A stretch of DNA of 64,000 nucleotides from positions 1,689,001 through 1,753,000 of the forward strand of contig NC_083587.1 of NCBI RefSeq assembly GCF_027579695.1, read 5' to 3'. Below, piece after piece: positions 3,690-54,605 of the stretch. A program made the position numbers and the translations under genes. This DNA comes from Neoarius graeffei (Eukaryota; Chordata; Actinopteri; Siluriformes; Ariidae). Each line of letters opens with the position of its first letter. Position 1 is the stretch's first letter. A model generated the notes under the pieces. It ran no database searches. It had not been told where the DNA came from and saw only the letters and a program-made list of their open reading frames with translations.

Positions 3690-3910
3690 TCAGTTGTGTT
3701 ATTTCACTGACACATTCAGATACAAGGAATCCATTGACATTTTGTGAAAACTGGAGAATCTCTTGTTTTGGACAACATTTCCATCAACAGAAAAAGGTTT
3801 CTCTTGTCCTGAAAGCAACACAACTTGTAAAGGATGAAACTAGCCAGTACAGGGATTGAACCTGTCACTTTGGCATTATTAGCGCCACACTCTAACCAAC
3901 TGAACAAGAC
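3690..3910 (-). mobile_element. tRNA-Ile-headed SINE-like repeat
   Basis: On the minus strand, 3910-3842 reads like tRNA-Ile: GTTCAGTTGGTTAGAGTG, an anticodon loop CTAATAA (anticodon AAT), and a T arm GGTTCAATCC. The acceptor halves do not pair, so it is not a working tRNA. The downstream body (3841-3690) recurs at 4541-4712 with the same order of blocks (CAAGGAAT, ACATTTTGTGAAA, GGAGAATCTCTTGTTTTGG). A tRNA head plus a body found more than once suggests a SINE with a pol III promoter. I cannot name the family. Confidence 0.6.
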
Positions 3911-20557: not shown

Positions 20558-21022
20558 GTGTTTTTATATCTTGTGCTTAAGAACAACATGGTGAAATATA
20601 TTAGAAAAACATGAAATCGACTCTGATATTTCCTTATTCACTTACCAAGATCTTTGATACTAAAACAGCTCTGAGTTGGGAGTCTGAGACATGAGTAACA
20701 TACTGTGACAACAATTGGTACTTAGGGTGGGCATTATTTAATTCCAATAATGTCTTTTTGCTTGTCTATGTGATAGAAAGACACTGATCAATGCTAAACT
20801 AGTGACAGAGCACTGAAAATTAAGCCTCTTATGGGCAATTTTTGAGGTCAGGGAACAGTGGGCCAATGAGCTGCCTTCAGCGAATAAATTTATAGTAAGA
20901 TAGATAGATGAAGTTTATTGCCTCTGCTGGGAATTTGGGGAAAAAAACTGGAGAGAAAAAGCAACAGATGCTTTTGATCTCTGGGTTCTGGGCCAAGTGC
21001 GCTTCTGGTGCAGCACTCTGTT
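20558..21022. repeat. Left copy of a ~460-bp direct repeat ending in an iMet-like tRNA remnant
   Basis: It matches 21905-22362 at roughly 85-90% in order (AAGAACAACATGGTGAAA, GACACTGATCAATGC, GATAGATAGATGAAGTTTAT). The last 60 bp are a shortened minus-strand initiator tRNA-Met relic (20960-21021; CTGGGTTCTGGGCC where the intact gene has CTGGGTTATGGGCC). The two copies bracket the tRNA array. Confidence 0.8.
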
Positions 21023-21098
21023 CACCTCACACCCGAAATAGGACTCAAACCCACAATCCCTGGCTCATGGAAAACATTGGTGTAAAATCACTCAAAAC

Positions 21099-21170
21099 TA
21101 GCAGAGGATGGTTTTGATCCATCAACCTCTGGGTTACCAGCCCAGCACACTCCTGCTGCACCACTCATAG
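21099..21170 (-). tRNA. Initiator tRNA-Met-like copy with altered anticodon (GGT)
   Basis: 72 nt, full length, in the initiator tRNA-Met pattern on the minus strand (GGATGGTTTTGATCCATCAA is the complement of the T arm). The anticodon loop reads CTGGTAA instead of CCCATAA, so the anticodon is GGT rather than CAT. The 5' acceptor half is damaged (CTATGAG). Probably a pseudogene. Confidence 0.6.
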
Positions 21171-21236
21171 CCCACCTAGGACTTGAACCCATAATGCCTG
21201 GCTTATGGAAAACACTGGCATAAAAGACACCAGAGC

Positions 21237-21308
21237 TAGTAGAGGATGGTTTTGATTCATCAACCACTGGGTTATGGGCCCAGCATGCTCCCACTGCACC
21301 ATTCTGCT
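21237..21308 (-). tRNA. Initiator tRNA-Met(CAU), best preserved copy
   Basis: 72 nt on the minus strand. It starts AGCAGAATGGTGCAGTGGGA, has the CAT anticodon within CTGGGCCCATAACCCAG (the initiator-specific GGG/CCC anticodon stem), and ends ACCATCCTCTACTA. The acceptor stem has two mismatches (positions 3 and 7). It could be weakly functional but is more likely a decaying copy. Confidence 0.65.
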
Positions 21309-21394
21309 AACTTCACCCCCCCCCCCCCCCAAAATGAGACTTGAGCCCCTACTGCCTGACTCAAGGAAAACATTGACAGAAAATACCTCAGAAC

Positions 21395-21459
21395 AAGCAG
21401 AGAAAGGTTTCGATCCATTGACTTGTGGGTCCAGCACGCTCCCACTCCACCACTCTGGT
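21395..21459 (-). tRNA. Initiator tRNA-Met-like copy lacking the anticodon
   Basis: About 65 nt on the minus strand. T arm (GGTTTCGATCC on plus) and D arm are recognisable, but about 7 nt including the anticodon are deleted (GTGGGTCCAGC). Certainly a pseudogene. Confidence 0.65.
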
Positions 21460-21535
21460 GACCTCACACCTCAGGTGGGACATGAACCCACAATGCCTGG
21501 CTCATGGAAAACTTTGGCATCAAAGACCTCAGAAC

Positions 21536-21607
21536 TAGCAAATGATGGTTTCACTCTCTCAACCTCTGGGTAATGGGCCCAGCACACTCTCACTGCACCA
21601 CTCAGCT
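21536..21607 (-). tRNA. Initiator tRNA-Met-like copy, CAU anticodon, damaged T arm
   Basis: 72 nt on the minus strand. The anticodon region CTGGGCCCATTACCCAG keeps CAT (loop CCCATTA). The T arm (GGTTTCACTCTCTC on plus) has lost the consensus TTCGATCC. Probable pseudogene. Confidence 0.6.
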
Positions 21608-21678
21608 CCTGTGGGACTAAGAGGCACAATTCCTGATTTAAGAGGCTAGTGCCTTATCCATTCATTCACCACTGTACC
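21604..21678 (-). tRNA. tRNA-Arg(UCU)-like pseudogene
   Basis: On the minus strand: CAGTGGTGAATGAATGGATAAGGC, then an anticodon arm with loop CTCTTAA (anticodon TCT), then AGGAATTGTG and AGTCCCAC. It follows the tRNA-Arg pattern but the T loop is destroyed. The spacers between the Met copies (for example around 21175-21205 and 21475-21505, with GGACATGAACCCACAATGCC) are 3' halves of similar tRNA-Arg sequence, so the array unit was Met plus Arg. The following 21680-21904 shows nothing else. Confidence 0.55.
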
Positions 21679-24214: not shown

Positions 24215-24630
24215 CAATCTACTGAGCTGTGCAGGCTCTAAGGTGAGCTTTCTTGAACCATAGGACATGTATTTTCTTTTAGAACATGAAGCATTTTGAC
24301 CATCAGGTCAATTGAAAAATGTTACCAGCATGATTCCGGATCAGAAGGTCGCGTATTCAAGCCAACAAGGTGTCATCTTGTCTTTGTATAACTCATACAA
24401 AACACCTTTTCCAAATTATTGCCCATCATCTGGCACAAATAATGATCAAAAGTACTTGTTTAACCTGCAAAATGATATAGTCAACTCATAGAATTTGAAT
24501 CTTGGTCCTATCTACTGAGCTGTGCAGGCTATAAGGTGAGCTGTACTGAACCATAGGACATATTTTCTTTTCAAACATGAAAAAGATTGACCATCAGGTC
24601 ACTTGGAAAATGTTACCATCATGAAGTATG
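24215..24630. repeat. Two ~120-bp direct repeats with tRNA-like pieces
   Basis: The block CTACTGAGCTGTGCAGGCTC ... GACCATCAGGTCA ... ATGTTACC occurs at about 24215-24333 and again at 24508-24620, with modest divergence. After the first copy, TTCCGGATCAGAAGGTCGCG resembles the anticodon and variable region of tRNA-Arg, but the rest of that tRNA is absent. The remainder of 24037-24812 shows no gene. Confidence 0.6.
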
Positions 24631-24812
24631 CTTTATGACCATTATTCTAAAGTCTTATCTTGGTTCAAGGAATCCCTTTCTTGTTATGGTATTGGACTCC
24701 TTTGACAAGCATCACAATTTTCAACCATACCTGTCTTTTTGGAACAAGGAGACCAATTGACTAAAAAGCAAGTCTGTTCCTCAGGCAACAGCAAATCAGC
24801 ATGCTTGCTGCA

Positions 24813-24839
24813 GTTTCTATAGTGTAGTGGTTATCACAT
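24813..24839 (+). pseudogene. tRNA-Val(CAC), 5' part, split by a hAT element
   Basis: GTTTCTATAGTGTAGTGG followed by TTATCACAT is positions 1-27 of tRNA-Val, including the acceptor 5' strand and A box. The gene continues at 28358, on the far side of a 3.5-kb transposon. The two parts sum to exactly 73 nt. The last eight bases (TATCACAT) are repeated at the other side as the target duplication. Confidence 0.85.
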
Positions 24840-25135
24840 AGGGTTGCCAATCATCCCGATTTGCCCGGGACATCCCGAATTTTAGGTGAATTTAATTTGT
24901 CCCGCGAGGAACAGCTCCTGTCCCATATTCCAATCACAGTCGCAGTTTTTGATGAAATATGGATGAAATATTTTATCCAATAGTAGCAGACTGGTGATTG
25001 ATGACACATTCTGAACAGGGATCTTTGATAGGCTACTGTGATAAGGCGCCAAAACTCATGCAAACGTTGCTGTGGGAGACGGTTGTTGAGTTCAGTTCAG
25101 TCAGTGGTTCTCTGCTCGTGAACAAGTCAGTGAAA

Positions 25136-27019
25136 ATGGATGAACCTGTGAAGAAAAAGAGGCTTGGGAGCTACAACAAGGAATGGGAAGCAAAAAGGTC
25201 GTGGGTTAAAGCCACCACAGATGCTAGGAGAGCATTTTGTACATTATGCCGCCAAGAGATATCTATTGGCCATGGTGGCGAGCACAACTTATCCCGCCAT
25301 GAAGACACAGACTCGCACAAAAGGGCTGTGCTATCTAAAGGAGCTAGCAACATCAGTACATTCTTCGCCACATCTACTTCTGAAATCGACAAAATTTCTG
25401 CAAGCGAGGTAGCCTATGTGTATCACACCATCAAACACGGCCATAGCTATAACACCGCGGACTGTACAGTGAAATTAAATGGGACCTTATTTCAAGACTC
25501 GAGTGTTGCTAAGAAGATGCAATTGGGAAGAACCAAAGCGGAGATGATAACCATGAATGTCTTGGGACCAAGCACTGTGGGGAAAATAGTGTCTGACCTT
25601 TCTAGTTCTACAGATGATGGTAAGACAATTTATTTTTCACTTGCTAGCGATGCCTCAAACAAGGGAAATAGGAAAATGTTTCTGGTATGTGTGAGGTATT
25701 TCTCCACGTCGGATGGTGTACAATCCAAGCTGTTGGATTTCTACAAAGACAGTGACGAAACTGCAAATGGAATACACCAGGCTCTTATTGCCTGCCTTGA
25801 CACGTATGGGCTTAATGTTAAAAACATCACCGCGTATGCCACCGACAATGCAAATGTGAACTTCAGAAAGCACCATTCTGTCTACAAATCGCTCAGCAGC
25901 GCAAACGATGGCATTCTAAAAGTTAACTGCCCTGCCCATGTCGCACACAACACATGCAAGTATGCGACCGATAAGCTGACAGTGGATATTGAGACCATCG
26001 TTTTGAAAATTTACAATAATTTCTCTCTGTCATCATCTCGGCGAGAGGAACTGCGGTCCTTTTTTTCTTTCACTGACATTGAGTGGCGGGAGATATTGCA
26101 TCATGTGTGCACTAGGTGGCTCTCTCTACATCCAGCTGTGACATGTCTCCTGGAAACTTGGCCTGCACTTACCTCCTACTTCAGGTCCTTAGGGGAACAG
26201 GGTCCGGTGGCACTGAGGAAGATATTTGAAGATGAGGAAAAAACTGACACTGCAGAGATTTACCTGTGCTTTTTTCACAATGTTGGGGCCGTCTTTGACC
26301 AACTTGTTAAGAAGCTTGAGGAAACTGATCTGTGCATCACTGATGTCTACGAGGAGCTGAGACAGTTCAGGCAAAAAATGCTCCAAAGGAAGGAAGACAG
26401 CCTCTTCGGCTATCAGACCAAGAGGCTGATGGAGAAGGTGCCAGGAGGACAGAAGTCAAAAATCAAAGATGACTTTAAGACGTTTTATGATTCAGCCGTT
26501 CAATACATCGACAAGTGGTTTGACTTCTCACCTGACAATGTAATGGTGCAGCTGAAGCCAATAGGCCTATATGATGAGCTCTCCTTCCCAGACCTAGAAA
26601 AGATGGTACCTGCTCTAAAACTTTCAGACACAATCAATATGGATGAGCTATATGAAGAGTTCTGCAACAGCAGGGAAGAAATCAAGACGCACTCAAAGGA
26701 TGCCACAGAATCCACTGGTGAAAAATGGGTGGCTATCTTTGAAAACGTTGGGAAAGAAAAGATGACAAACATGTTCAAGATCGTCTCCTTCGTCCTTAGC
26801 GTGCCAGGCTCTAATGCCTTTGTGGAAAGGATTTTCTTTTTGATGAGTGGGAAATGGTCCGATGCCAGGAACCGATGCAGCACAGAACTTATAAAGAACG
26901 AACTCCTTGTCACTGTAAACTGTCACTTGTCCTGCAAGGAATTCTACCTGGCAGTGCAGAAGGACAAGAAGATGCTGGAATCAGTCAGGAGCAGCAGGAA
27001 ATATCCCTGGAAGGTGTAG
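25136..27019 (+). CDS. hAT-family transposase, 627 aa, intact (KIAA1586-like)
   Basis: The protein starts MDEPVKKKRLGSYNKEW; an in-frame ATG at 24998 would add 46 residues, but the later start fits the basic N-terminus of relatives. Near residue 30 there is a C2H2 finger (FCTLCRQEI ... LSRHEDTDSHK). The middle has the RNase-H-like catalytic region with SLASDASNKGNRKMFLVCV (first Asp), AYATDNANVNF (second Asp) and LKVNCPAHVAHNTCKYA. An alpha-helical insertion follows with WREILHHVCTRWLSLHPAV. The C-terminus is the hAT dimerisation domain (VPGSNAFVERIFFLM, then WSDARNRCSTELIKNELLV). It cuts and pastes its own element by binding the ends. No frameshift or stop is seen over 627 codons, which is rare in this window. 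It could also be a co-opted host gene, but the flanking target duplication argues for a mobile copy. Confidence 0.88.
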   Translation: MDEPVKKKRLGSYNKEWEAKRSWVKATTDARRAFCTLCRQEISIGHGGEHNLSRHEDTDSHKRAVLSKGASNISTFFATSTSEIDKISASEVAYVYHTIKHGHSYNTADCTVKLNGTLFQDSSVAKKMQLGRTKAEMITMNVLGPSTVGKIVSDLSSSTDDGKTIYFSLASDASNKGNRKMFLVCVRYFSTSDGVQSKLLDFYKDSDETANGIHQALIACLDTYGLNVKNITAYATDNANVNFRKHHSVYKSLSSANDGILKVNCPAHVAHNTCKYATDKLTVDIETIVLKIYNNFSLSSSRREELRSFFSFTDIEWREILHHVCTRWLSLHPAVTCLLETWPALTSYFRSLGEQGPVALRKIFEDEEKTDTAEIYLCFFHNVGAVFDQLVKKLEETDLCITDVYEELRQFRQKMLQRKEDSLFGYQTKRLMEKVPGGQKSKIKDDFKTFYDSAVQYIDKWFDFSPDNVMVQLKPIGLYDELSFPDLEKMVPALKLSDTINMDELYEEFCNSREEIKTHSKDATESTGEKWVAIFENVGKEKMTNMFKIVSFVLSVPGSNAFVERIFFLMSGKWSDARNRCSTELIKNELLVTVNCHLSCKEFYLAVQKDKKMLESVRSSRKYPWKV

Positions 27020-27935
27020 GCCTTACTGGTGAGTCTTCATTTGAATTTGTCTATATATCTTATTTATGCAACCCACACACTTGGGGTGGCAGTATTTCTC
27101 AATCTAAATATAATTTTAATTTGTCTATGTATCTTGTTTATGCAAGCCACACATATAACTTCATGGGGTGGCAGTATTTCTCAATCGAAATATCATTTTA
27201 ATTTGTCTATGTATCTTGTTTATGCAACACACACACACATAAGTTCATGGGATGGCAGTATTTCTCAAGTTAAATATCATTTGTTTGTTTTTTTTTGTTT
27301 TTTTTTTCTTATTTACTGCAGGATAAGAGGATGTCCATGCCACTGTTCTGTAAATAGTTTGGGCTGTGCAGAAGGATGAGGAGATGATGGAAACTGGAAT
27401 AGCCATGGAAGAAGTAACTGGTGAGCCTTCATTTGAATTTGTCTGTATATCTTATTTATGCAACCCACACACTTCCACTATAACATGGAGTGGCAGTATT
27501 TCTCAATCTAAATATAATTTTAATTTGTCTATGTTGTATCTTTTTTATGCAACCCACACACATATAACTTCATGGGGTGGCAGTATTTCTCAATCTAAAT
27601 ATCATTTTAATTTGTCTATGTATCTTGTTTATGCAACACACACAGACATAAGTTCATTGGGTGGCAGTATTTCTCAATCTAAATATCATTTGTTTTTTTC
27701 TTATTTACTGCAGGATAAGAGGATGTCCATGCCACTGTTCTGTAAATAGTTTGGGCTGTGCAGAAGGATGAGGAGATGCTGGAATCTGGAATAGCCATGG
27801 AAGAAGTAACTGGTGAGCCTTCATTTGAATGTCCATATAAACATCTTATTACACACACATAAGTTCATGGGATGGCAGTAGGCTATTTCTCAATCTAAAT
27901 ATCCTTTCTTTCTCTTATTTATTGCAGGATAAGAG
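26955..27935 (+). repeat. Tandem repeats of an exon-like unit at the hAT 3' end
   Basis: A ~400-bp unit occurs about 2.4 times: units begin near 26955, 27366 and 27758 (truncated). Each holds an exon-like block (GTGCAGAAGGAT-type start to AACTGGTGAG, a donor-like end), then an AT-rich stretch with TGGCAGTATTTCTCAATC repeated two or three times, then TTTACTGCAGGATAAGAGG, an acceptor-like end. The first unit overlaps the last ~20 codons of the transposase. Confidence 0.8.
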
Positions 27936-28357
27936 GAGGCCCATGCCATACTGAAAAGATGCAGACCAACAACGTATTCTCTTAAGTTTTAATAAATAGT
28001 TTAAAAAAACTTGCATACATTTCTGTCTTTGCTTTTCCTTCAAGATATGCCCCTCAAATAGAATAACTATGACAATGGTTGGTTTATGCCTAAAGCTTTT
28101 CAGAGTTTGAGAAATTTGAGAGACACTTGTAGGCCTAATGATTGTTTTGACTATTACTTAAACACAATACAGTTTTGCTCGTGCAGTATTAATTTACCAA
28201 AATTATACTGGAATTAGTAGGACTGTGGTCTGGATAAGGAAACGTTATGATTTCCATCGTGGGGCAGTGCGGATAGGCCTGGGAAAAAAAGTCCTCCATT
28301 TGGGTTGAAAGTGTCCCTCTTTTGGGGTTCAGGGAGTTGGCAGCCCTATTATCACAT

Positions 28358-28403
28358 TTGTCTCACACGCGAAAGGATCCTGGTTTGAAACCAGGCAGAA
28401 ACA
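28358..28403 (+). pseudogene. tRNA-Val(CAC), 3' part
   Basis: It starts TTGTCTCACACGCGAAAGG: the anticodon loop CTCACAC with anticodon CAC. A perfect T arm follows (CCTGG TTTGAAA CCAGG), then the acceptor strand CAGAAAC and A. Joined to 24813-24839 it pairs throughout except one A-C at acceptor position 7, so the gene was nearly intact when interrupted. The sequence 28404-28803 shows nothing recognisable. Confidence 0.85.
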
Positions 28404-28805
28404 GTGCTTGATTTCTTGGACTGAGAAGTAAATAAACAGTGAGCTGCTGTCGCTGCTCTGTCTGTGACTTTTGGAACAACCGAGAACCTGACAAACCTTC
28501 AGGTATTTTTTCCCCTGTCCTCAAAAAACAATCGTCTTACCGAACTGGGAATCATATTAAACCAATCGTGTTGTTGCACTAATGCAAGCACACAGTTGTT
28601 TTCTATCCCAGTGGCCACTGAAAGTGCAGTCATGTTATGTTTCTCTCCTCAATCATTTAAAGAGGGACTTGATCTTATATTCAATCTATTTTCTCTCCCC
28701 AACTCCATCTGCTGCCATCTGTTGGTTACACAATGCTCTACAATTACCAGGAGAGATGGAAACAGTTTCAAAGAACTTCCTGTTTCTCCAGTGAACAAAA
28801 ATATA

Positions 28806-30417
28806 CAGTGGTGCTTGAAAGTTTGTGAACCCTTTAGAATTTTCTATATTTCTGCATAAATAAGACCTAAAACATCATCGGATTTTCACACAAGTCCTAA
28901 AGGTAGATAAAGAGAACCCAGTTAAACAAATGAGACAAAAATATTATACTTGGTCATTTATTTATTGAGGAAAATGATCCAATATTACATATCTGTGAGT
29001 GGCAAAAGTATGTGAACCTCTAGGATTAGCAGTTAATTTGAAGGTGCAATTAGAGTCAGGTGTTTTCAATCAATGGGATGACAATCAGGTGTGAGTGGGC
29101 ACCCTGTTTTATTTAAAGAACAAGGATCTATCAAAGTCTGATCTTCACAACACATGTTTGTGGAAGTGTATCATGGCATGAACAAAGGAGATTTCTGAGG
29201 ACCTCAGAAAAAGTGTTGCTGATGCTCATCAGGCTGGAAAACATTACAAAACCATCTCTAACGAGTTTGGACTCCACCAATCCACAGACAGACAGACTGT
29301 GTACAAATGGAGGAAACTCAAGACCATTGTTACCCTCCCCAGGAGTGGTCGACCAACAAAGATCACTCCAAGAGCAAGGTGTGTAATAGTCAGTGAGGTC
29401 ACAAAGGACCCCAGGGTAACTTCTAAGCAACTGAAGGCCTCTCTCACATTGGCTAATGTTAATGTTCATGAGTCCACCATCAGGAAAACACTGAACAACA
29501 ATGGTGTGCATGGCAGGGCTGCAAGGAGAAAGCCACTGCTCTCCAAAAAGAACATTTCTGCTTGTCTACAGTCTGTTAAAGATCATGTGGACAAGCCAGA
29601 AGTCTATTGGACAAATGTTTTGTGGACGGATGAGACCAAAATAGAATTTTTGATTTAAATGAGAAGCGTTATGTTTGGAGAAAGGAAAACACTGCATTCC
29701 AGCATAAGAATCTTATCCCATCTGTGAAACATGGTGGTGGTGGTAGTATTATGGTTTGGGCCTGTTTTGCTGCATCTGGGCCAGGATGGCTTGCCATCAT
29801 TGATGGAACAATGAATTCTGAATTATACCAGTGAATTCTAAAGGAAAATGTCAGGACATCTGTCCATGAACTGAATCTCAAGAGAAGGTGGGTCATGCAG
29901 CAAGACAACGGCCCTAAGCACACAAGTCTTTCTACCAAAGAATGGTTAAAGAAGAATGAAGTTAATGTTTTGGAATGGCCAAGTCAAAGTCCTGACTTTA
30001 ATCCAATCAAAATGTTGTGGAAGGACCTGAAGTGAGCAGTTCATGTGAGGAAACCCACCAACATCCCAGAGTTGAAGTTGTTCTGTATGGAGGAATGGGC
30101 TAAAATTCCTCCAAGCCGGTGTGCAGGACTGATCAACAGTTACCGGAAACATTTAGTTGCAGTTATTGCTGCACAAGGGGGTCACACAAGATACTGAAAG
30201 CAAAGGTTCACATACTTTTGCCACTCACAAATATGTAATATTGGATCATTTTCTTCAATAAATAAATGAGCAAGTATAATATTTCTGTCTCATTTGTTTA
30301 ACTGGGTTCTCTTTCTCTACTTTTAGGACTTGTGTGAAAATCCGATGATGTTTTAGGTCATATTTATGCAGAAATATAGAAAATTCTAAAGGGTTCACAA
30401 ACTTTCAAGCACCACTG
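28806..30417 (+). mobile_element. Tc1-like transposon, copy 1 (long TIRs, TA target)
   Basis: 1612 bp, flanked by TA (28804-28805, 30418-30419). The ends are ~210-bp inverted repeats starting CAGTGGTGCTTGAAAGTTTG, with internal GTGAACC direct repeats at both ends of each TIR (28828 and 29010), the IR/DR layout of fish Tc1 elements. Target, ends and length (1.6 kb) are standard; the transposase is dead. Confidence 0.95.
29173..30197 (+). pseudogene. Tc1 transposase, inactivated
   Basis: Starts ATGGCATGA, a stop at codon 3. Beyond it come the paired-like DNA-binding domain (STDRQTVYKWRKLKTI, GRPTKITPRARC) and then the catalytic domain. The first Asp is present (WTDETK), followed by a frameshift at about 29650. 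The second Asp is present (QQDNGPKH). The third acidic residue is replaced by Lys (NPIKMLW where Tc1 enzymes have NPIE). Further stops occur at 29832 and 30032. It cannot make a working enzyme. Confidence 0.9.
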
Positions 30418-39359: not shown

Positions 39360-39727
39360 CATCTCATCTCATTATCTCTAGCCACTTTATCCTTCTACAG
39401 GGTCGCAGGCAAGCTGGAGCCTATCCCAGCTGACTACAGGCGAAAGGCGGGGTACACCCTGGACAAGTCGCCAGGTCATCACAGGGCTGACACATAGACA
39501 CAGACAACCATTCACACTCACACCTACGGTCAATTTAGAGTCACCAGTTAACCTAACCTGCATGTCTTTGGACTGTGGGGGAAACCGGAGCACCTGGAGG
39601 AAACCCACGCGGACACGGGGAGAACATGCAAACTCCACACAGAAAGGCCCTCGCCGGCTACGGGGCTCGAACCCAGACCTTCTTGCTGTGAGGCGACAGC
39701 GCTAACCACTACACCACAGTGCCGCCC
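39360..39727 (-). mobile_element. V-SINE, full length, minus strand, 12-bp target duplication
   Basis: Reverse-oriented copy very similar to 38432-38801, flanked by GAAAATGTATTT (39348-39359 and 39728-39739). With the previous copy it forms an inverted pair about 560 bp apart. The following 39763-40782 shows no gene. Confidence 0.95.
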
Positions 39728-51062: not shown

Positions 51063-51431
51063 GAGCCACCTAAAAGCGCGCCCAAGAAGGGCTCCAAGAA
51101 AGCCGTGACCAAGGCGGCTGGTAAAGGAGGCAAGAAGTGCAGAAAGTCCAGGAAGGAGAGCTACGCTATCTACGTGTACAAGGTCCTGAAGCAGGCTCAT
51201 CTCGACACCGGCATCTCGTCTAAGGCTATGGGCATCATGAACTCCTTCGTCAATGACATTTTCGAGCGTATCGCCGGTGAGTCCTCTCGTCTGGCTCACT
51301 ACAACAAGCGCTCCACCATCACCTCCAGAGAGATCCAGACTGATGTGCGCCTTTTATTGCCTGGCGAGCTGGCCAAGCACGCCGTGTCCGAGGGCACAAA
51401 GGCCGTCACCAAGTACACCAGCTCCAAGTAA
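51063..51431 (+). pseudogene. Histone H2B pseudogene without start codon
   Basis: The frame [20 protein letters not shown] begins at 51063, but the codons that should read Met-Pro are GGT-AG, so no ATG exists before the core domain (the first in-frame ATG is within SKAMGIMNS). The rest is open to TAA at 51429. Changes in conserved positions include KKCRKSRKE (Arg to Cys, a CpG-type change), [10 protein letters not shown] (VHP to AHL), ESSRLAH and [10 protein letters not shown]. The insertion of Tc1 just upstream and the lost start make it non-functional; the stem-loop remains perfect. Confidence 0.9.
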
Positions 51432-51468
51432 AGTGCACTGCTGCTGCGGCCGCCTTCAGCAACCTAAC

Positions 51469-51484
51469 GGCTCTTTTAAGAGCC
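51469..51484 (+). terminator. Histone 3' stem-loop of H2B
   Basis: GGCTCTTTTAAGAGCC followed by ACCCA, perfect consensus, 37 bp after the stop. AGAAGAGC at 51499 fits the U7-pairing element. The spacer 51505-52127 shows no gene. Confidence 0.95.
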
Positions 51485-52127
51485 ACCCACTTTCTCATAG
51501 AAGAGCAAATTCGTGTGTGTCTCTCTGTGCTGTTTCTTTGTTTTATAATAAATGCAGAATTGAATAAATATTTATTTACGGGAGATACAGCGAGAACAGT
51601 TGCCACATCAGGAAAACCAACCTCCATCAATGAGTAAATAAAGGAGCTATTTTACTTACAAAGCGAAAATAACCGAGTAAAAATCATATGGGTGCTGCAC
51701 TGAGTTATTTAAAATGTTTTATTTGTCTCTGTGGATAAATGGAAATCTGCCTTGTGACAATGTCCATTGTTAAAAACACAAAACGTGTGTGAAGTGATAA
51801 ATGTATTGAAATACCAACAAGGATTTGTTCTTGATACATATAGACCAATTATTAAATACAGCATTACCTTTGCTCATTTCCAAGCAGCGGAGAAAACTTT
51901 CTGCTTCTCTCTTCTGATTACTGAAGCGGCGCTCAGACACCACAATATCTAAAAGGACGGGGACAAAAACCTGTCAGTCAAACCGCGAGGAGTTCTAGAA
52001 CTCTGGCCACTGTGTCCTAACAGCTGTTCTGTTTCACTGCTCCGACTCCACTCGAACCGTGAGCTCAAACAGAACAGTGTTCCATGCAGGGGATGGAGAC
52101 GGGCTCGTTTCTGTGAGACAGTGAGGT

Positions 52128-52143
52128 GGCTCTTAAAAGAGCC
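52128..52143 (-). terminator. Histone 3' stem-loop of H3
   Basis: GGCTCTTTTAAGAGCC on the minus strand, perfect, 27 bp beyond the H3 stop. Confidence 0.95.
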
Positions 52144-52170
52144 TTTGTGTGCGTTAGACGGAGTCCGCGT

Positions 52171-52476
<306 letters not shown>

Positions 52477-52480
52477 TCAC

Positions 52481-52617
52481 AGATGAGAAACAGAATAAAT
52501 GGCACCGGCGGACACTGGCTTTTTCAACTCTAACAGCGCCCTGCACTCATTGGGCGTCTTGAACGCGGTCGCCTGTCATTGGAGAGAACGCGTTGCGTCA
52601 CCTATTCGCTATTGGAC
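52481..52617 (-). promoter_or_regulatory. Histone H3 promoter (CCAAT boxes, TATA-like box)
   Basis: On the minus strand: CCAAT at about 52613, 52578 and 52549, then a TTTATT TATA-like box near 52495, about 40 bp before the ATG. Three CCAAT boxes are typical for core histone promoters. 52620-52960 shows no other feature. Confidence 0.7.
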
Positions 52618-52961
52618 TGTCTTTTCCCGCCGACAAAGTTTGAAACACAGCCACACCTGTCCCTAATTGATTGTCGCTCGTGCAGCTCCGCAGAGCCAAC
52701 AGCGCAGCTTAGCGCATTTTGTAGGTTCAATCGCCGCACGGACAGCGCCGTCATAATCTATTTTCACCTTCCTTTATCGCCAGCACACTACTATTATTAT
52801 GCTATACTATTACAACTAAAATGCTTTATAAATAAAATGCATCATTACTACTAACACCACATGATTATATTGTTTATGAATTCCTTTTATGCTAGAGCTA
52901 TGAAATACCCCAAAACCTGGGAAAGGATTTAAAAAAGTGCACTTTTTGAGCATAGATCGGT

Positions 52962-52977
52962 GGCTCTGAAAAGAGCC
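52962..52977 (-). terminator. Histone 3' stem-loop of H2A
   Basis: GGCTCTTTTCAGAGCC on the minus strand, perfect stem, 34 bp after the H2A stop. Confidence 0.95.
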
Positions 52978-53010
52978 TTTGGGGACTGACGAACGCAGCA
53001 GTGTGTGAAT

Positions 53011-53532
<522 letters not shown>

Positions 53533-53615
53533 TCAAATTCCAGCATCAGCCTGCATGACAACCATCCCACGGGTGTGTGTGTAAGAGACAGAGAGATATG
53601 AAAAAGGAAAGAAGG

Positions 53616-53617
<2 letters not shown>

Positions 53618-53667
<50 letters not shown>
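53618..53667. repeat. (TA)n microsatellite
   Basis: About 24 TA units between H2A and H1. The Ile-Tyr frame through it is an artefact. Confidence 0.96.
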
Positions 53668-53672
<5 letters not shown>

Positions 53673-53858
53673 AGTTTATATATCGATGTACAGAAATGTA
53701 AATTGTTATTAGTTCCATCAGCTCTGACTCAGTTCATGTTCTCCCAGCGCCCTCCTGTCACCATTTTGTAAAGCAGGAATCAACTCCACCACAACAATCA
53801 GCAGCATCTGATATCCTGAGTGAATATGGAATACTGCTCTTTCAACGAAAACATGGGT

Positions 53859-53874
53859 GGCTCTTAAAAGAGCC
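53859..53874 (-). terminator. Histone 3' stem-loop of H1
   Basis: GGCTCTTTTAAGAGCC on the minus strand, perfect, 37 bp after the H1 stop. Confidence 0.95.
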
Positions 53875-53910
53875 GTTTAGGGAAAGAAAACATTACTCAA
53901 ACAAACATGT

Positions 53911-54453
53911 TTACTTCTTTCTGGGGGCCGCCTTTTTCGCCTTGGCCGTTTTGGGCTTTACGGCTTTGGGCTTGGCAGTTTTTGTCTTCTTCGCGCTCTT
54001 GGCAGCCTTTTTGGGGGTCGACGGTTTTTTCGCCTTCTTCGGGCTCTTGGCGGCGGGTTTCTTGGCCGCTAACTTCTTAGCGGCGGTTGGCTTTTTGGCG
54101 GCCACCTTTCTGGCTTTGGGCGCGGCTTTCTTGGCGGGGTTCTTGCCTTCGGTCTGCGTCTTGTTCAGCTTGAAAGAGCCAGACGCACCGGTCCCTTTGG
54201 TCTGCACCAGGACGCTTTTCCTCACAAGGTTCCTGACGGCGATTTTGACGCGGGAGTTGTTCTTCTCCACATCGTATCCGGCGGCCTGTAAAGCTTTCTT
54301 CAAGGCGGAGAGGGACACGCCGCTCCTCTCCTGCAATGCAGAAACCGCTTTGATGATGAGCTCGCCGACGCTCGGGCCTGATTTCTTGCTCTTTGAAGCT
54401 GCTTTCTTCTTGGGCGCTTTGGCCGGCGCGGCGGCGGGAGCGACTTCTGCCAT
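53911..54453 (-). CDS. Linker histone H1 (intact)
   Basis: 180 residues starting [20 protein letters not shown]; 27 more in-frame codons upstream belong to the 5'UTR and promoter. The winged-helix globular domain runs from about residue 25 to 98 ([66 protein letters not shown]). The C-terminal ~75 residues are Lys/Ala/Pro repeats ([20 protein letters not shown]) that bind linker DNA. Length is slightly short for vertebrate H1 (about 190-220). Some globular positions vary from the usual form ([18 protein letters not shown]), but nothing disrupts the frame. A GC box, a TTTTAA box and an H1-type AC box lie upstream. The plus-strand open frame opposite is a shadow of this biased composition. Confidence 0.95.
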
Positions 54454-54508
54454 CTGTCTCGGAGCTCCGGAGCGGAAGCGAGTGAAACCCTGTGTGGGAA
54501 ACGGAGGC

Positions 54509-54605
54509 CGGGGGCGGGGCTTAAAAGCGCTCATGAGAACGTTTGAGACTCAACCGCGCTGCCGCTGAGTGAGCGCGCTGCCGTCACACACTCGCACTTG
54601 TGTTT
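54509..54605 (-). promoter_or_regulatory. H1 promoter: AC box, GC box, TATA-like
   Basis: On the minus strand: AAACACA (54599-54605), the conserved H1 box; CCCCGCCCC near 54515; and GCTTTTAAGCC (54517-54527). The spacing fits replication-dependent H1 genes. 54606-55002 shows no gene, although GC content stays high. Confidence 0.75.

Follow-up and report, generated by a model that had tools for sequence, protein, structure and literature searches.

In the window (the whole 64-kb stretch of DNA analysed here, C20:1689001-1753000), a tRNA-Val(CAC) of 73 nt is interrupted by a 3,510-bp hAT-type element, which leaves halves of 26 and 47 nt. This arrangement is very probably the result of a single hAT-type insertion into one CpG-depleted tRNA-Val unit, after which unit and element were duplicated together to at least nine copies. 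The insertion is clear but ordinary, with no sign of tRNA targeting in the left flanks of the element copies among the matches listed.

The tRNA halves lie on the forward strand at 24813..24838, which contains the A-box region, and at 28357..28403, which carries the anticodon CAC and the B box GGTTTGAAACC, the C of GGTTC being T in this copy. Between them, the element (24839..28348, + strand) is bordered by a perfect duplication of 8 bp, for which TTATCACA is the best reading; the left copy (24831-24838, +) supplies the final 8 nt of the 5' half, and the right copy occupies 28349-28356 (+). The preliminary description had located the halves and recognised a perfect 8-bp duplication, but its boundary was one base off, dividing the tRNA into 27 + 46 nt and reading the identical sequence in shifted form as TATCACAT. 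Division into 26 + 47 nt was preferred on grounds of inverted-repeat symmetry, because the element ends TAGGGTTGCCAA and TTGGCAGCCCTA pair at 11 of 12 positions when the element is taken as 24839-28348. With the element and one duplication copy removed, the sequence is exactly 73 nt long, as had been claimed, and is called tRNA-Val(CAC) by ARAGORN; the positions of the two halves likewise bear out that the element entered the tRNA-Val sequence between its A-box and B-box regions.

In a region so filled with repeats one junction alone could have been wrongly joined, so the split tRNA might in principle be an artefact of assembly or a chance resemblance, a reading to which we give almost no credence. 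Recurrence of the joined structure at nine listed loci argues against assembly error, as both junctions are present at each and uninterrupted units occur elsewhere. When 20,000 random deletions of 3,519 bp were made in the window, ARAGORN found a junction-spanning tRNA 4 times, one of these being the observed junction (within a base) and three being a single spot near 3893. Chance resemblance of the rejoined tRNA is unlikely.

Searching the window's own genome (2.34 Gb) with the joined empty site as query gave 40 matches, the best 40 of 134 candidates scored, and counts based on them are therefore lower bounds. Nine of the listed matches were right halves of occupied units, located on C20 (7), C17 (1) and C18 (1), while the other 31 spanned the insertion point with 73–95% identity, some of them being more distant partners of a nearer unit. 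The two tRNA halves are joined as originally proposed, and at no fewer than nine loci. Element-free matches were listed on C20, C17 and C18, and also on C13, C23 and C1. All 14 of the listed spanning matches that were fetched proved uninterrupted and had a single target, which was exactly TTATCACA in 11 cases; by comparison, TTATCACA was present in 9/9 listed occupied units on the left side and the right side alike. Among the occupied copies listed, the right half lay about 3.1 to 8.0 kb from the start of the element, which implies that several of them hold later insertions or deletions. At the expected right end of one copy (C20_4626) there is a stretch resembling, by eye, a retroelement pol gene. 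The tRNA-Val matches on C13, C17, C18 and C20 were often paired at a spacing of ~1.0–1.1 kb, with nine such pairs listed and the partners unequally similar to the query.

Comparison with the 5' fragment of zebrafish and stickleback tRNA-Val-CAC, as it appears in excerpts of two reports (C6, G26 and C29; PMC4688932, PMC3637797), covered the first 30 nt and revealed four differences in the window copy, at positions 6, 7, 26 and 29, all of them transitions at CpG sites. T6, A26 and T29 were shared by 23/23 units examined and A26 lies inside both duplication copies; the three changes are therefore most likely older than the insertion. The A at position 7 behaves differently, being present in 7/9 occupied units and 0/14 fetched empty units, with G7 in the remaining two occupied units (C18_4466 and C20_5244) and in all 14 empty ones. 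The single acceptor mismatch noted in the preliminary description (A7 versus C66) is therefore real in the window copy, but is probably a later change. The B-box C that is altered in the window copy is kept in 4/9 occupied and 6/14 empty units, and the first TTTT occurs 66 bases downstream of the tRNA. The canonical sequence, intact B box and nearby T-run terminator of a functional tRNA-Val are not combined in the window copy. What had been called a nearly intact gene does keep the basic layout of one, but belongs to a repeated, CpG-depleted tRNA-Val unit in which ARAGORN recognised a tRNA in just 3/14 fetched empty copies; the target was accordingly a diverged tRNA-Val copy of basic tRNA layout, probably an inactive one.

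The multicopy nature of this unit, its weak resemblance to a tRNA by ARAGORN and the distance to the first TTTT would also suit the head of a tRNA-Val-derived SINE, as opposed to a copy of a tRNA gene unit. We regard this as very unlikely, given that right-flank homology continues for ~400 bp beyond the tRNA in four copies, that the left flanks extend too and that the joined sequence has the full 73-nt tRNA layout. Moreover, the 40 listed matches fall on six contigs, mostly within a few stretches and including the nine pairs, a distribution that differs from that of a dispersed SINE.

The element itself is best classified as hAT on the strength of its duplication and its ends. An 8-bp target-site duplication is the defining length for the hAT superfamily, and the terminal inverted repeats, which match at 11/12 positions, begin in the manner of the hAT consensus (C/TAGGG). 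A transposase reading frame of 627 aa (25136..27019, +) is open throughout and shows, by eye, a D...D...CPAH...RW...E layout; the candidate motifs, also chosen by eye (residues 168-175, 234-242, 265-268 for CPAH, and 560-567), follow the order expected of hAT transposases. The C-terminus matched Hermes weakly (E 0.07-0.11). The duplication and the ends agree with the initial assignment to the hAT type. A Pfam search of the 627-aa protein returned no family at E values up to 0.1, no transposase relatives were confirmed in viral and prokaryotic contigs, and the fold predicted from the single sequence was too poor to use (mean pLDDT 34). The 3' non-coding part of the element contains repeated modules (27025..27950, +), including two 141-nt copies that are 98% alike; they lie past the transposase stop codon and their borders resemble splice sites.

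To follow the suggestion that this family may favour tRNA genes, the element's first 300 bp served as query, yielding 41 matches (best 40 of 255 candidates scored, again a lower bound). Two of the matches were pieces of one C9 copy and one was the window's own copy, and the left flanks of the 39 others were fetched. L061, in which the match starts at element base 28, had no recognisable left end and was excluded, so that 39 copies remained with the window's included. In 9/39 of these copies (best 40 of 255 candidates) the element was immediately preceded by the tRNA-Val half with TTATCACA at its end. Collapsed by shared flanks, however, the 39 copies represent 23 distinct sites among the matches listed, in groups of 9, 6, 3 and 2 copies plus 19 singles, and only the tRNA-Val site (1/23) is evidently a tRNA by its left flank. 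The comparison covers the left flanks of the 23 sites. Box-motif scores at those 22 sites (left flanks, among the matches listed) were like those of random DNA: L052 had a B-box-like stretch with one mismatch, equalled on that strand by ~2% of 3,000 random 75-mers, and L029, L037, L038 and L040 each had an A-box-like stretch with one mismatch, seen in ~12% of random 75-mers per strand. Because such scores do not discriminate, what is evidently a tRNA was judged by reading the flanks. Tabulating the flanks in this way gave no tRNA enrichment beyond that one site, and the idea of a family preference is left unsupported, the nine copies being best explained by one duplicated insertion. Among the papers listed on hAT elements and tRNA genes, no title or opening part of an abstract tells of a tRNA-preferring hAT.

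Duplicated flanks were also observed for other copies of the family, three on C2 and two on C1. Six short copies (L059, L062, L063, L064, L066 and L067) matched the query over no more than its first 172 bp and had one common flank, as if a deletion derivative lay inside another amplified repeat.

Flanks, trees and divergences taken together give moderate support to one insertion followed by duplication. The left flank of the window's unit (24239..24812, +) is common to 5/8 other occupied copies at ~98% identity, a figure that includes the element's first 200 bp, and the other three copies match only from 24782, so that the copying was not of one simple block. On the right flank (28404..28805, +), homology with the window ends at 28805 in 4/8 other occupied copies. 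A Tc1-like repeat starts at ~28801-28805 in the window's unit and runs over 28801-29100 and onward; as the homology of those four units ends at 28805, it looks like a later arrival in the window copy.

In the element tree (610 shared columns, 20 of 21 rows, o_C2_6403 having been dropped with homology ending at 359), the nine elements at the occupied site fell on one side of a branch and the 11 others on the opposite side (support 79/91, 79% of bootstraps), and none of 500 shuffles was as clustered. This support is moderate, and the bootstrap had not settled. A preceding tree from 1 kb of the element (13/21 rows, support 86/89, two rows with unrelated tails) gave an outcome of the same kind. 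The unit tree, constructed from the flanks of 23 units (nine occupied and 14 fetched empty), required 2 changes of the occupied label compared with a shuffled mean of 7.4. Five empty units were nested among the occupied ones, hence 2 changes and not 1, and a single occupied clade was not rejected (p-AU = 0.348). Among the nine occupied copies, mean divergence was similar for the element (3.0%) and the flank (2.4%), and the two sets of distances were weakly correlated (r = 0.37, with 441 of 10,000 permutations as high).

A preference of the hAT family or of one branch for tRNA genes, with the nine occupied units as separate insertions at a favoured spot, would account for nine listed copies at exactly one base of tRNA-Val units where many uninterrupted targets were to hand. 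Neither tree forces a single origin, and fish do have site-specific DNA transposons of tRNA genes, namely Dada, according to excerpts of two papers (PMC8869645, PMC3706591). Such a preference is nonetheless distinctly improbable here, seeing that 22/23 distinct sites are not evidently tRNA (left flanks, among the matches listed), that the nine elements group together in their tree, that 600 bp of left flank are shared with five of the eight other occupied copies and that flank variants and element variants tend to travel together. It is likewise highly improbable that a hAT branch became site-specific and reinserted at one base of the multicopy tRNA-Val units, making the nine occupied copies partly separate insertions.

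Under the favoured history of one insertion and later duplication, a hAT-type element would have inserted once into one copy of a repeated tRNA-Val unit that had already departed from canonical tRNA-Val, making the 8-bp duplication. The element-bearing unit would then have been duplicated both inside tRNA-rich regions and from one to another, on the large contigs C20, C17 and C18, to give at least nine occupied copies with the window's among them. As the A box is separated from the B box, an occupied copy would be expected to make no tRNA. What reads as a transposon in a tRNA gene at nine loci can stem from a single event that duplication multiplied, and uncollapsed counts would give a false impression of tRNA targeting (9/39 copies versus 1/23 sites among the matches listed). 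The occupied and empty units could also provide a datable marker for the spread of a tRNA-rich block between chromosomes.

Relics of tRNAs abound in the surroundings, with three Rfam tRNAs in the 64-kb window and five in the surrounding 100 kb, compared with 0 in 100 kb drawn from ten other places with round coordinates; landing by chance in tRNA-like DNA is accordingly likelier here than elsewhere. Degenerate, CpG-poor tRNA-like sequences form a block at 20980-21640 on the minus strand of the window, where relaxed ARAGORN settings reported Thr, Met, Ser and Trp tRNAs, two of which are also Rfam calls; the Met copies resemble initiator tRNA. Five repeats with a tRNA-like head of the GGCACGGTGGTGTAGTGGTTAGCGC type, probably a SINE, were found near 1030, 7403, 38434, 39652-39726 (-) and 59420, and weak matches to the tRNA-Val query (73–78%) in ten other fetched loci may be of this same GGCACGGTGGTGTAGTGGTTAGCGC-headed repeat. 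Histone genes are present at 51063-54549 (H2A, H1 and another core histone by Pfam), together with four histone 3' stem-loops by Rfam.

A fish host, a tRNA-Val target and a mid-gene position are also what might be expected of a Dada transposon, of which Dada-tV targets fish tRNA-Val, and the C/DxxH motif is common to Dada and hAT transposases in the part of the literature consulted (PMC8869645). That the element is a Dada transposon misread as hAT is nevertheless exceedingly unlikely. In the consulted part of PMC3706591, Dada inserts as a rule into multicopy RNA genes with duplications of 6–7 bp, and Dada-U6 and Dada-U1 have no inverted repeats, whereas the present element has an 8-bp duplication and clear inverted repeats, with 1/23 of its sites evidently a tRNA (left flanks, among the matches listed). 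Its protein is 627 aa long compared with 1,402 aa in one Dada family and has a weakly Hermes-like C-terminus, and the element runs in the same direction as the tRNA, whereas the Dada families of the anticodon region (tL, tA, tD and tV) run in the opposite one, as far as the excerpted accounts go.

Among known systems, the element resembles hAT transposons of the Hermes/Ac/Tol2 kind in its 8-bp duplication, its short TAGGG...CCCTA repeats, its candidate DDE-type layout with CPAH and its weakly Hermes-like C-terminus, and differs from them in having a 627-aa protein that matches no Pfam model. With Dada-tV and Dada-tD of ray-finned fish, as described in the excerpted source, it has in common a DNA transposon within tRNA-Val, including tRNA-Val-CAC (PMC8869645), but it differs in its 8-bp duplication, its tRNA-wise direction and its location mostly elsewhere (left flanks, among the matches listed). 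The history of the unit as a whole, with one junction at many loci and homologous flanks, would be that of a duplication carrying a transposon along. Segmental or array duplication can do so, and nothing here is unusual in that respect save the tRNA in the unit.
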